A stretch of 60,994 nt of DNA from Candidatus Altimarinota bacterium (GTDB lineage Bacteria > Patescibacteriota > Gracilibacteria > BD1-5 > UBA6164). Location: contig JAUXPL010000038.1 in the NCBI GenBank assembly GCA_030683605.1, forward strand, positions 1 to 60,994. Reading direction: 5' to 3'. Below are positions 9,459 to 49,600 of the stretch, one piece after another. Position numbers and translations under genes: made by a program. The first letter of the stretch is position 1. Every line of letters starts with the position of its first letter. The notes under the pieces were generated by a model. It was not told the origin of the DNA and searched no databases. It worked only from the letters and a program-made list of their open reading frames with translations.

Positions 9459-12400
9459 ATGATTGATTTAAAACTGCAAATTGACTTAAACAAACATTAT
9501 ACAAATTATTGAAGTATATTTTCAAGGTTGTTACTACTTAGTAATCAATTGAAGAAAAATGATACTTTTTTAATAGTTGTTGAGAGTGAAAAACAATTAA
9601 ATACATATGTAAATATAGCATCTTACCTAGGTCTTACTATAAATAGTTTAAATAACTATGCATGATTAGTAGATTTTATTTATAACAATAAATGAAAGTA
9701 TATAGTTACAAAAGATTTTTATAATTTAAATTTATGAGAATATTCTCAGTTTGAGTACCAAAATGTATTTACATTAAATGTATGAGATGAAGTAAAAGTT
9801 GATGAAATAACTAAGAAATTAAATGATTTCTGATATCATTTCTCAGAATTTGAAAATGAATGAACATTTAGAGTCTCAGGTGATATTTTGAGTTTTACTG
9901 ATTTATCAGGAAATACTATTAAAATAAGTTTTTGGTGAGATAGTATAGAAGATATAATATCATCAAATTCCAGTTATAAAACATATGTTTTTTGAAAAAA
10001 TGTATCAATAGACTTCTACAATATTGTATGAAAAGTGAATATTGATTTAAAAAATAAGATACATAATATTGATTCATTGATTATATTAGATTCTCTAGAT
10101 TTTTATTCTAGTTATGATGAATTATCAAAAAATCTTTCTAATTATATTATTTTTAACTCTTTATGAGAAGATACTAGCTATATAAATCTAGGTATAGACG
10201 AACTATATATAGAAAAAATAGAGGATTTCAAGATATTATTGGAAGAAAAGAATACTAAAAAATACATATTTACAAAGAATAGAAATACAATAAAAAATTT
10301 TATTGAATTAAATAATTTAGATTGAGTTGAAATAATTGATACAAATTTAAATAATTTAAAAAGTTTTAGAGGAACAAACCACCCCCTACCCCCTCCTTAC
10401 CAAGGCGGGGGTAAGCTACAGGAGTGAGTAATAGTAGTCTGTGATGATAATATTTCTCGTATATTTGTAAAAAAGAGAATAAAGAGAAGTCTATCAAAAA
10501 ATCTTGATTTGATGATGCAGATAACACCTTGAGATTATATAGTACATATAGATCATTGAATATGAATATTTCGTGAAATAGTAACAAAGGAATTACCAAT
10601 TTCTGTATGAAAAGAACCTATAAAAAAGGAATATATTACTATAGAATATAAAAATAATGATAAGTTATTTGTACCTATTACTGAAGTGTGAAGAGTAGCA
10701 AAATATGTATGAATAGATAATCCTAAACTTACATGATTAAATACTAAGGAATGGGAGAAAAAATTACAAAAAGCATCTGAAGATGTAGAAATAATAGCTC
10801 GTGAATTACTAGAAGTATATGCAAAAAGAAAGTTAATAAAATGATATAGTTTTAAGTCTTTGCCAAAAGATGAGACGATTTTTGCAAATTCGTTTAATTA
10901 TATTTATACAGATGACCAATTAAATGTAATTTCAGAAATATACAAGGATATGGAATCACTAAATCCTATGGATAGATTGTTATCAGGAGATGTATGATTT
11001 GGTAAAACAGAAATAGCATTTGCAAGTATATACAAGGCAATAATTAACTGAAAACAAGCAGCTTTAATATCGCCACTAGTAGTATTAGCTTATGAGCATT
11101 ATGAAAAAGCATTAGAGAGATTTGCTGATTTCCCAATAAATATATGAATAATCACTAGATTTGAAAAATCATCAGTTGTAAAAGCGACACTAGAAAAACT
11201 AAAAACTTGAAAAATAGACTTGATAATATGAACTCATAGACTACTGAGTGAAGATGTCCATTTCAAAGATTTATGATTATTAGTAGTAGATGAAGAGCAT
11301 AAATTTGGAGTAAAAGACAAAGAAAAAATTAAAATGTTTAAAGGTAATATAGACATATTGTCTATGTCTGCTACCCCTATTCCTAGAAGTTTAAATATGG
11401 CTTTGAATTGAATAAAGTCAGTGTCAATGTTGACAACTCCACCACTAGGTAGACAATCAATCCAGACAGTAGTTGTACCATTTGATGATCAAATTATTCT
11501 TGATGCAGGTAAAAGAGAATTCGATAGATGAGGACAATTATTTTTTATACATAATAGAGTAGAAACTATTACTGCAATGTCAAATCATCTGAGTAAAGTA
11601 TTTCCGTGAAAAAAGATTGCAATAGCTCATGGCCAATTGTGATGAGATATGCTTGAAAAAAGAATAATAGAATTCAAAAGAAGACAATATGATATATTGC
11701 TTGCTACAACTGTTGTAGAAAACTGAATTGATTTTGCTAATGTGAATACTATATTTATTAATGAAGCTCAAAATTTTGGTATTAGTCAGATACATCAACT
11801 CAGATGAAGAGTGTGAAGATCTGATAGAAAATGATATTGTTATCTATTGTTTAAAAAAGATAAAATCAAAGAAGATGCAGCAAAAAGACTCAAAACAATT
11901 GTCGATTATAGTCACTTATGAGCATGATTTGAATTGGCAATAAAGGATCTAGAAATTAGATGATGATGAGATATTCTCGGTATTAGACAAAGTGGACAAT
12001 CACATGAAATATGAGTAAATTTATTCTTGGAAATGCTAGAAGATAAAGTAGAAGAGTTGAAAATAAACTTACACTCAACTTATAGCCCTCACACTAACCC
12101 TCTCCCAAAGGGCGAGGGAATAGACCAAATAGTTGTAGCTTCTTCTCTCCCTTTGGGAGAGATTGAGTGAGGACAGTTATTAGAAGATATAAAGAAAGAA
12201 AGGAAAATTAAAATTAATACAAGTATTGATTTAAATATTGCTGCATATATAGATGATATGTATTTCTGATCTGAGCTAGATAAAATAAATTTCTATAGAG
12301 AAATAGAGAGCTTGGATAGTATGGAAGATTTAGAAAATATTATAAGTGATTTCAGAGATATAAATAGAGCAACACCTATTGCTACTAATAATTTCTTTGA

Positions 12401-29977: not shown

Positions 29978-30054
29978 GGATGCGTAGCTCAGTTGGTTAG
30001 AGCGCTCCCCTGTCACGGGAGAGGCCGCGGGTTCGAGTCCCGTCGCGTCCGCCA
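29978..30054 (+). tRNA. tRNA-Asp (GTC)
   Basis: Acceptor GGATGCG pairs with CGCGTCC, discriminator G, encoded CCA. Anticodon loop ctGTCac between CTCCC and GGGAG. T-arm gggttcgagtccc. Its 3' end from cgagtccc to cca is copied at 30193-30213 by the element downstream. Confidence 0.95.
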
Positions 30055-30109
30055 TTTAAAAAATAAGAAAAATAAATATTTTTTTATTGAGTAATATATT
30101 GATTTATAT

Positions 30110-30213
30110 GACTCGAAAGGAGGTTTTTGCGAAGCAAAATTTAATTGCGACGAATAGGAGCAATTAAAACGGATGGCCTACCCGCAGGGAGCCGAGTCCC
30201 GTCGCGTCCGCCA
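30110..30213 (+). repeat. 104-nt structured element ending in a copy of the tRNA-Asp 3' end (copy 1)
   Basis: The element starts GACTCGAA, the inverse of the T-loop of the tRNA just upstream, and ends in the last 21 bases of that tRNA including CCA. It lies exactly 55 bases after the tRNA, as copy 2 does after tRNA-Leu. It folds into a closing stem GACTCG/CGAGTC and three hairpins: TTTTGC/GCAAAA, TTTAATTGC/GCAATTAAA, and a GGC/GCC stem with an inner CCC/GGG. Copy 2 (33020-33123) differs at paired sites in compensating ways. Possibly a structured RNA or a small element that targets tRNA genes. Confidence 0.8.
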
Positions 30214-32107: not shown

Positions 32108-32152
32108 AGCCTCTTTCCCCTGTTAAGGGGAGAGAATTCAAGAGAGAGGTTT
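32108..32152 (+). repeat. Intergenic palindromic repeat between tuf and rpsJ
   Basis: gcctctttcccctgttaagg then ggagagaattcaagagagag; CCTCTTTCCCC and GGGGAGAG flank the loop tgttaa. The same element lies inverted at 33137-33181, and an enlarged copy at 38536-38625. Confidence 0.75.
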
Positions 32153-32216
32153 ATAATACTAAGCAATTAGATTATATTAAATAATTTATATTTATTACTA
32201 TATTTATATATTTATA

Positions 32217-32879: not shown

Positions 32880-32964
32880 GCCCAGATGGTGGAATTGGTA
32901 GACACGCGGGACTTAAAATCCCGTTTCCTCGGAAGTGCGGGTTCGATTCCCGCTCTGGGCACCA
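32880..32964 (+). tRNA. tRNA-Leu (TAA)
   Basis: Acceptor GCCCAGA pairs with TCTGGGC, A discriminator, encoded CCA, long variable arm (tttcctcggaag). Anticodon loop acTTAaaa within GCGGG and CCCG. T-arm gggttcgattccc. Its last 21 bases are repeated at 33103-33123. Confidence 0.95.
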
Positions 32965-33019
32965 TACTAAAAAAGTATTAAAAATAAATAAATGCACCTA
33001 ACGATGCTTATAATAATAG

Positions 33020-33123
33020 GAATCGAAAGGAGGGTTCTGCAAAGCAGAATTTAATTGCGACGAATAGGAGCAATTAAAACGGATGGCCTACCCGCAGGGA
33101 GCCGATTCCCGCTCTGGGCACCA
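33020..33123 (+). repeat. 104-nt structured element ending in a copy of the tRNA-Leu 3' end (copy 2)
   Basis: Same size, core and 55-base distance from its tRNA as copy 1 at 30110. The first eight bases GAATCGAA are the inverse of this tRNA's T-loop (ttcgattc); in copy 1 they are GACTCGAA, inverse of ttcgagtc. The first hairpin is TTCTGC/GCAGAA here and TTTTGC/GCAAAA in copy 1. The closing stem is GAATCG/CGATTC. The second hairpin and the right core are identical between copies. It carries AAAGGAGG, a perfect Shine-Dalgarno-like word rare in this window. Confidence 0.8.
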
Positions 33124-33136
33124 TTAAATGAATTTA

Positions 33137-33181
33137 AAACCTCTCTCTTGAATTCTCTCTCCTTGTCAGGAGAAAGAGGCT
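33137..33181 (-). repeat. Intergenic palindromic repeat, inverted copy of 32108-32152
   Basis: acctctctcttgaattctct then ctccttgtcaggagaaagagg. It is the reverse complement of the tuf-rpsJ repeat with a few changes in the loop. With the tRNA-end element it fills the 329-base gap between tRNA-Leu and rpsP. Confidence 0.75.
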
Positions 33182-46690: not shown

Positions 46691-49600
46691 ATGTTTATAC
46701 ATTTACATAACCATTCGCATTATACTATTTTGGAAGGATTACCAAAGCCAAAAGATTATGTAAAAAAAGCCGTAGAACTATGAATGACAGCAGTTGCAAT
46801 AACTGATACATCGAATGTTCACGGTTGTCATGAACTGTATAAAGAGTGTAAATATGCTTGAATAAAGCCAATAATGTGAACAGAGATTTATGTTAGATCT
46901 TCACTGGATGAAAAAATTAATCATAAATTGGTATTGTTAGCAAAAAATCTAAAATGATATCATAATATACTTACTCTGACATCAAAGGCTAGCTTGGATA
47001 ATGCAGGAAAAACAGCAAAAATAGATTTCAATGATATAGTAGAGCTTAAAAAATCTTTAACACCACCCCTAACCCCTCCTCATCAAGGAGGGGGACAAGA
47101 CCATAATTCAATACAAGAGTTGGATATTGTTTGTTTATCATGACCAATTTCAGGTGAAATACCTTATTATATACTTTGTGGTAAATCAGATGATGAATTA
47201 ATATCAAAAATAAGAGAATATCAAGACTTATTTTGAGTAGAAAACTATTATTTAGAATTGATGTATCATGATGATATACCGAAACAAAGATTGGTAACAG
47301 ATAAATTGATAGAAATCCATAATAATTACGATATTCCAGTAGTTGCTACAAATAATTGTTTTTATATTGATAAAGAAGATAAAAAAACTCAGGATGTAAT
47401 CAAGGCTTTATGAACTTGACATGAGCTAGATAATCCTGATAGACCAACACTTATAAATGGTGATTATTCTTTTTTAGATGAGTATGAGATGCAATTAATG
47501 TTTGGTTTCGTACCTCAAGCATTAGAAAACACAGTAAAAATTGCAGAAATGGTAAATATCAAGATAGAGACAGGATGAATATTAATACCTACTTTTGAAT
47601 TACCAGATGAACATCAAAAAATATATGAAGAAGCATTGGATGTAGAAAAAGGGGAGTATTATACCCCTCACCCTAGCCCTCTCCCAAGGGGCGAGGGAAT
47701 AGACCAATTAACTGTAGCTTCTTCTCTCCCTTTAGGAGAGACTGAGTGAGGGCCTTTAATGAGAGAGATTGAAAATGGGCCTGAAAATTACATAAAAAAA
47801 CTTACTAGTGATGAATGGTATTTGAGATATCTTTCTTTTGTTTGATTAAATTGGAGATACAAAGAAAAAATACCTAGAGATATTATATTCAAACTAGTTC
47901 AGAAGTTGGACAAGCCAAGTTTGACAAAACAATTGACAGAGACTTCTCCTGAGGAGCTTAAAGCTCTTTCTGTTACATATTATTCAGAAGAAAAGAAACA
48001 AATATTGTCTACTTTCAGTCAAGATATTCAAGACAAGATTGAGAGGCTAGAGTACGAATTGGTAGTAGTTCATGAGATGTGATTTGATGCATATTTCTTG
48101 ATAGTTGCTGATTACATCAACTGGGCAAGATCACAAGATATCCCAGTTTGACCTGGTAGATGATCAGCTGCATGATCTCTGATGGCTTTTTTATCTGGAA
48201 TTACGGATATTGATCCATTACCTTATAAATTACTTTTTGAGAGATTTTTAAATCCAGCCAGAGTATCTATGCCTGATATAGATACTGACTTTGCTGATAC
48301 TGAGAGAGATAGAGTAATTAAATATTGTAGTGATAAATATGGTGCTGATAGAGTAGTAAATATATGTACATTTGGTACTTTTGCAGCCCGTGCAGCAGTA
48401 AAAGATGTATGAAGGGTATTTGGTATACCTTTTGCAGAAATGAATAATCTAGCGAAGTTAATCCCTGAAAAACCAGGTACAAAATTGAGATGAGCATTAG
48501 AAGATAGTATAGAGTTCAGAGAAGCTTATGAAACAAATCCTAAATACAAGGAGATTATAGACAATGCATTAAAGATTGAATGAAATGTTAGACAGTTGTG
48601 AGTGCATGCTTGTGCGGTTATCATCGCTCCTGAGTCTATGACGAAGTTTACAGCACTACAACATCCACCAAAAGATGCTGAGGCTGTAGTTACACAATAC
48701 TCAGCATATCCATTAGAAGATTTATGACTACTAAAAATGGACTTCCTTTGACTTAGAAACTTGACAGTTATAAAGAGAGCACAGAGTATTATAAAGACAT
48801 ACAAGAATATTGATGTAGACATCTTAGATATTGATTTAAATGATCCAAAAGTATTTAAAATCTTTGCAAATGGTGATACAACTTGAGTATTTCAATTCGA
48901 ATCTGATGGTATGAGAAAGTATTTAAAAGACTTGGCTCCTGATAGTTTCGAAGACTTGATAGCGATGGTATCTCTATATAGACCTGGTCCACTTGCTTAT
49001 ATACCGACATATATTGATGTAAAATATAGGAGAAAGGAATTGAAATATCTAACAGATGATTTGAGGAAAATACTTGAAGATGCATGATATCCAGAAGAAG
49101 ATATATTAGAAGAAAAGAGAAAATTAGATGAAGATTTAGCACCTATACTAGATGTAAGTTATTGAATTGCAGTATATCAAGAACAATTGATGTTTATAGT
49201 TCAGTATATGGCATGATTTTCTCTATGAGAAGCTGATTTGCTTAGAAGATGAGTTTGAAAGAAGAAATTGGATGTAATTGAAGCATTAAAAAAAGAATTC
49301 ATAGATAAATGAAAGGCATATAGACAATACAAACCTGAAACTACAAACTATATCTATACTGAAATGATTATGCCTGCTGCCAACTATTCATTTAATAAAT
49401 CACATGCAGCTTGTTATGCATTTATTGCTTATCAAACAGCATATTTAAAAGCATACTATCCAACTGAATTTTTGACTAGTTTAATGGTATCAGATTCTGA
49501 AAATATGGAAAGAATAGTATTAGAAGTATGAGAATGTGAATCTAAATGAATATCTGTTTTACCTCCTAGTGTAAATGATTCATTGAAACAATTTACATAT

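Follow-up and report, generated by a model that had tools for sequence, protein, structure and literature searches.

What kind of element is the folded, CCA-ended sequence that follows the tRNA-Leu(taa) gene and, in a second copy, the tRNA-Asp(gtc) gene of a Candidatus Altimarinota bacterium? Both copies lie in a stretch of 60,994 nucleotides (nt), here called the window (contig JAUXPL010000038.1 of assembly GCA_030683605.1; contig C50 of our genome G000, 1.54 Mb, 96.6% complete), whose genome contains in-frame TGA codons and fits genetic code 25. A first-pass annotation, made from the letters of the window only, had described at 33020-33123 (Leu) and 30110-30213 (Asp) a set of stems that keep their pairing between the copies. 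The stems were found as described, and the observation itself is confirmed; the interpretation given to it is partly supported. The element is probably a copy of an undescribed family of tiny non-coding mobile elements located at the 3' ends of tRNA and transfer-messenger RNA (tmRNA) genes. As it is non-coding, it is non-autonomous.

The Asp copy starts 55 nt and the Leu copy 54 nt 3' of the respective tRNA gene. A repeat search revealed that the end of tRNA-Asp (30034-30054) recurs at 30193-30213, and the end of tRNA-Leu (32944-32964) at 33103-33123. Counted from copy to copy, the full unit thus comprises 159 nt, and not 104 nt. Each unit consists of the target 3' end (C56 to CCA), a spacer, a short guide and a structured core, followed by the second copy of the target 3' end. 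The features of both loci are as follows.

29978-30054, +: complete tRNA-Asp(gtc) (ARAGORN, Rfam, repeat D6); the left copy of the duplication is formed by its final 21 nt (30034-30054, C56 to CCA)
30055-30109, +: spacer of the Asp unit, A/T-rich, unlike the native downstream sequence of relatives with an empty site
30110-30115, +: Asp guide GACTCG, 5' strand of helix P1, reverse complement of the tRNA-Asp T-loop/T-stem
30110-30192, +: structured Asp core (guide, P2, P3, P4); match to covariance model R1 at 30106-30201 (106 bits), and covariation
30193-30213, +: right copy of the tRNA-Asp 3' end (C56 to CCA); provides the 3' strand of P1 and is followed by native downstream sequence
32880-32964, +: complete tRNA-Leu(taa); its final 21 nt (32944-32964) form the left copy
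32965-33018, +: spacer of the Leu unit, containing close 5' of the guide a TATAAT-like word
33019-33025, +: Leu guide GGAATCG, reverse complement of the tRNA-Leu T-loop/T-stem
33019-33102, +: structured Leu core; match to model R1 at 33016-33111 (106.7 bits)
33035-33049, +: P2 hairpin of the Leu copy, TTCTGC/GCAGAA
33050-33078, +: P3 hairpin of the Leu copy, TTTAATTGC/GCAATTAAA, loop motif GA-C-GAATA-G-GA
33085-33103, +: P4 hairpin of the Leu copy, with a bulged C and a bulged A (covariation); its final C is C56 of the right copy
33103-33123, +: right copy of the tRNA-Leu 3' end (C56 to CCA)

Empty sites and spread over tRNA genes

The comparison with relatives supports mobility well. The sister genome G004 shows 93-94% identity on both flanks and lacks both window elements: at tRNA-Asp and at tRNA-Leu it has a single 3' end, followed by the sequence that is found here after the right copy (at Leu, another repeat stands in the window between the right copy and this G004-like flank). 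The Leu site is also empty in G001 and G003, and the Asp site in G001, G002, G007 and G037. Therefore, the 159 nt at Asp were either gained in the lineage of the window or lost several times with precision. G007 is empty at Leu, where its congener G037 carries a copy. None of the native downstream sequences seen resembles the Asp spacer, so that the unit seems to have brought its spacer along. The Leu spacer begins (ATACT.AAAA) as native downstream sequence does in another genus, suggesting that this unit arrived from outside. The nearest relatives of the cores are often found at other tRNAs, the Asp and Leu cores of the window being 95% identical.

Nearly all copies lie about 10-75 nt behind a tRNA gene and one lies behind a tmRNA, in G015. 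The host tRNAs include Asp, several Leu types, Ser, two Gln types, Trp, Tyr, His, Gly, Ile, SeC, Met, Val, Asn, Pro, Thr and Arg; the genome of the window itself carries further copies or partial copies behind tRNA-Ser, -Gln, -Leu(caa) and -Trp. BLAST gave matches in 19 of 99 genomes, the window's own among the 99, and model R1 in 26 of the 353 genomes of the class, nearly all in one family. Matches of a core-pattern scan of named genomes fell in Candidatus Gracilibacteria records, plus one Patescibacteria and one Candidatus Altimarinus record. Within this range, copies are patchy between sister species and among tRNAs. Related units stand behind tRNA-Ser in two genomes of another family (G048, G056), and a sample of the phylum revealed others in G493 and G546, which belong to another class of Patescibacteria. 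A model built from the latter units (R2) recovered 19 copies in 7 of 49 genomes of this second class, most of them adjoining tRNAs, with guides and duplicated 3' ends; in G546, 50 nt of terminator are duplicated as well. The family is undescribed and absent from Rfam 15: with gathering and permissive thresholds, only tRNA and one tmRNA matched, otherwise weak sub-threshold hits were obtained. The literature that we searched does not describe it, and the viral contigs searched contained no match. Empty sites, duplicated tRNA ends and the spread over many tRNAs all favour the self-moving element with a tRNA-like end that had been listed among the first suggestions.

At the tRNA-Ile and tRNA-Ala loci L248 and L249 (G529 and G493), tRNA 3' halves and the sequence downstream of them are tandemly duplicated without a core.

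Conserved fold, guide and duplicated tRNA end

The conserved fold is real. The two window copies alone are thin support for it, and the folding energy of single sequences is uninformative (z about -1.2). From 28 aligned copies, RNAalifold predicted a closing helix (P1) and three hairpins (P2, P3, P4), with double compensatory change in 20 of 27 pairs; 98.5% of the cells were paired, against 80.9% in shuffled alignments and at most 55% with the partner slid. In an alignment of 49 distinct canonical copies, fitted to the covariance model, the stems held equally (98.3% of cells paired, against 80.1% shuffled and no more than 60% when the partner was displaced by 1-3 columns) and the double compensatory changes numbered 227, against 60 in shuffles. 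The second-class fold behaves similarly, with 93.1% of cells paired and 70% after shuffling. Broken stems in additional copies were among the findings that would have counted against the first-pass reading; this check, made on the copies above, did not refute it. The C-G pair of the P3 motif is U-A in 20 of the 49 copies, the bulged C and bulged A of P4 are kept, and two unpaired words, GAA..GAGG and ACGGATG, are conserved. The first-pass annotation had inferred compensation from two stems. In P2 the change is genuine (TTTTGC/GCAAAA in Asp, TTCTGC/GCAGAA in Leu), and the second stem and the GGC..GCC hairpin are indeed identical between the window copies. The closing stem is likewise paired in both (GACTCG/CGAGTC, GAATCG/CGATTC), but its change is not free covariation because its 3' strand copies the 3' end of the adjacent tRNA; since that end is duplicated in the element, the stem tracks the neighbouring tRNA. 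The multi-branched fold is conserved as supposed; its position behind tRNA genes in nearly all copies shows that it is not a free-standing tRNA mimic.

The CCA end and the word AAAGGAGG are present in both window copies. AGGAGG occurs at few sites of the window (4 on the + strand, 5 on the - strand), and the word had led to the idea of a decoy for 16S rRNA. This idea is not supported by the family, as GGAGG is found in the junction of only 38 of 61 copies, the usual word being GAGG or GAGA.

P1 is formed by the guide of the element and the T-loop/T-stem strand of its target. The guide at the 5' end (GGNNTCG) reads as the reverse complement of the T-loop of its own tRNA. Among 61 guides, located without using the tRNA, 2.74 of the 3 variable T-loop positions matched the own tRNA, against 1.59 when shuffled (best of 2000 shuffles, 1.93). 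Three guides fit the tRNA better than they fit the decayed copy, and none fits the tRNA worse. Most guide matches extend over 6-9 nt, some over 10. In L251, we counted by eye 13 nt (CGAGCAGGATTCG against CGAATCCTGCTCG), which exceeds the need of P1, and this one copy hints at an inverted copying of the target.

The right-hand junction is C56 in nearly all copies and the upstream tRNA gene stays whole in the standard layout. Measured from CCA to the guide's end, the distances form two groups (about 13-30 and 46-76 nt), and the spacers, mutually unrelated in sequence, often contain a terminator-like hairpin. The duplicated end is exact in 45 of 67 tRNA/copy pairs and differs in 22. In the inexact copies, 24 of 50 changes are located at or after positions 68-70 (p 1e-8 against a uniform distribution), often from GG to CTN, and the CCA itself is altered in 3 copies. 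These observations bear on a splicing origin, in which the duplicated 3' end would be an exon of a self-splicing or trans-splicing element whose removal restores the tRNA. A C56 junction would indeed give back a perfect tRNA, and the pairing of guide and T-loop resembles that of an internal guide. However, the tRNA upstream is complete as it stands and decay affects the downstream copy, the opposite of the prediction; in addition, no intron or ribozyme family of Rfam matches the element, and the core of about 83 nt is, to our knowledge, far smaller than known self-splicing introns. We therefore consider splicing highly improbable.

The same data were examined with regard to a structured regulatory RNA, CCA-ended, matured by tRNA-processing enzymes and acting on the adjacent tRNA, which would spread because it is useful. 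The strong covariation and the conserved junction words would suit such an RNA, as would the wobble pairs conserved in the second class. The changes at 68-70 can be read as a lowered competition of the copy for the 5' acceptor strand of the tRNA, which would imply co-transcription. Yet the element is patchy across sister species and tRNAs, promoter-like sites are no commoner in the region than in shuffles (consensus scan), terminators often stand between tRNA and core, and the CCA of the copy is not immune to change. A regulatory RNA is thus unlikely, and its first version, a competitor for T-arm enzymes or RNase P, is weakened by the same patchiness and by the frequent alteration of the acceptor part. 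A conserved CCA was rejected as proof of function, the copy varying little outside 68-70.

Wobble pairs account for 0.8% of cells in the Gracilibacteria copies and for 6.3% in the tRNAs of the same loci (acceptor and T stems), which favours a fold of DNA or of both strands. In the second class, they reach 6.6%, with two wobble pairs conserved, which favours RNA. The argument that the element is wobble-free and hence acts as DNA was consequently dropped as a general one.

Candidate helper enzymes and known mobile systems

We searched the genomes for an enzyme that would accompany the copies. The Y1 (HUH) transposase PF01797 is absent from G000, G002, G004, G007, G020, G026, G037, G039 and G041, and the reverse transcriptase PF00078 from G000, G004, G015, G020 and G041 despite the copies present there; as neither tracks the copies, both were discarded as helper. 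A XerA-like tyrosine recombinase, above the cut-off of NF040815 and below that of the integron integrase TIGR02249, is found in 8 of 22 genomes with copies and in 2 of 25 without (p 0.03, uncorrected for relatedness). G000, G004 and other genomes with 5-7 copies lack it, and no core lies beside it; with this weak association and its absence from the genome of the window, it was also set aside. The single tyrosine recombinase of G000 is encoded elsewhere in the genome, and the element itself encodes no integrase.

This recombinase is relevant to an integron-like or island recombination site, where the core would be a folded attachment site, the simple units would be empty cassettes, and a XerA/IntI-like enzyme would move the site, at times together with genes. 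Hairpins with bulged bases, the wobble-poor stems of Gracilibacteria, the genes enclosed between two copies in G015 and the commoner XerA-like recombinase in genomes with copies are all compatible with it. The missing recombinase in genomes rich in copies, the junction at C56 and not in a GTT core, and the ordinary wobble of the second class make it quite improbable. Integron attC sites do share with the element imperfect folded hairpins, a variable sequence with conserved structure, tandem units and sometimes genes between them, but the element stands at tRNA genes, its junction lies within the T-loop, and a dedicated integron integrase was not found.

Other systems resemble the element in part. 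Integrative elements with tyrosine integrases that target tRNA and tmRNA genes also use the 3' part, leave the gene whole and produce a second 3' end downstream; accordingly, we found the host tRNA whole, its 3' end duplicated and empty sites in relatives. Unlike them, the element measures only about 120-200 nt, carries no integrase or other gene, and occurs at many tRNAs per genome with the matching 3' end at each, a T-loop guide and a conserved fold. In IS200/IS605 insertion sequences and repetitive extragenic palindromes (REP), the subterminal hairpins contain bulged bases, and the cleavage site is paired with a short guide. The element shares bulged hairpins and a short pairing guide with them, whereas it lacks a Y1 transposase in element-rich genomes, duplicates a long target, and has a guide that varies by target. 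Short interspersed nuclear element (SINE)-like retroelements, known in eukaryotes, are likewise short, non-coding and structured, with a target duplication and one fixed junction, but here reverse transcriptase does not track the element.

Proposed insertion and rearranged copies

For a family of mobile elements, the following scheme may be proposed. A trans-acting enzyme would recognise the core together with the T-arm structure of the target, the T-arm serving as half of the closing helix. As the target 3' end would be duplicated on insertion, the host would lose little and any tRNA gene could be a safe landing site. The guide may be fitted to a new target when the T-arm is copied in inverted form at insertion (snap-back synthesis), or selection for pairing may fit it afterwards. 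Copying from an element RNA primed at a nick in the T-loop would fit the fixed 3' junction, the variable 5' spacing and the inverted target copy; a recombinase acting on a folded DNA strand would fit about as well.

Several points weigh against mobility. No movement was observed, and none of the three candidate enzymes tracks the copies, all being absent from both G000 and G004. The Trp core is 96% identical between two genera, and some copies look long-lived. In principle, precise loss could account for several of the empty sites, and the guide match can also stem from selection.

A stronger form of the mobile-element reading, which we regard as tentative, is that of a selfish element without genes, an RNA or single-strand DNA about 80-140 nt long. 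It would enter any tRNA or tmRNA gene at the T-loop, fold with the T-arm and, on insertion, rewrite its guide from the new target, so that a single core could colonise all tRNA genes. If true, it would be among the smallest mobile elements known, with a target chosen through base pairing to the tRNA region that is most conserved, and a natural case of retargeting in which the core stays constant while the target changes. Its countable copies and empty sites would allow the study of spread and insertion rules by comparison alone, in two classes, Gracilibacteria and the second class of Patescibacteria, about whose mobile DNA little is known.

Tandem units or remnants occur at L047, L027, L233 and L234, and two pairs of copies enclose other genes in G015. 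At L111 (G015:C19:60000-65500), two direct copies of an element starting with CCACCA flank two open reading frames (ORFs) and a smaller ORF; the two appear FolD-like by eye, and the ORFs are possible cargo. At L095 (G015:C27), the element behind the tmRNA is accompanied by a second copy 2.8 kb downstream, at the start of which the final 8 nt of the tmRNA (CTCCACCA) recur. An inverted pair at L094 (G039:C26:36000-42500) was rejected as an element with inverted ends, being a perfectly mirrored contig sequence and probably an assembly artefact.

In copies that do not adjoin a tRNA (L023, L024, L039, L051), the core sits within another repeat, with stem TTTAGGGGG..CCCCCTAA. This second structured repeat family (TTTAGGGGG...CCCCCTAAGACCCC, preceded by a TTACTTTTGAATCCAAAAGTAA hairpin) was seen at L138 (G038), L134-L136 (G033) and L137 (G012). 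Some genomes have 10-12 copies of this repeat, and four of the repeat copies contain the inserted element core.

The window contains further repeats. A palindrome-like repeat, AGCCTCTTTCCCCTGTTAAGGGGAGAGAATTCAAGAGAGAGG, is present at 32108-32157 and 33132-33181 in inverted orientation (I1); the right one lies directly 3' of the Leu element, and dozens of similar stretches occur in genomes of the same genus. At 158-2831, a repeat of about 76 nt (TTGTATATAATATGAGTATATTGATTTGCAAAGTA...) occurs five times, with a spacing of about 600-790 nt (D1), and a 111-nt repeat with 85% identity is found at 12080-12190 and 47659-47769, 35.6 kb apart (D4).
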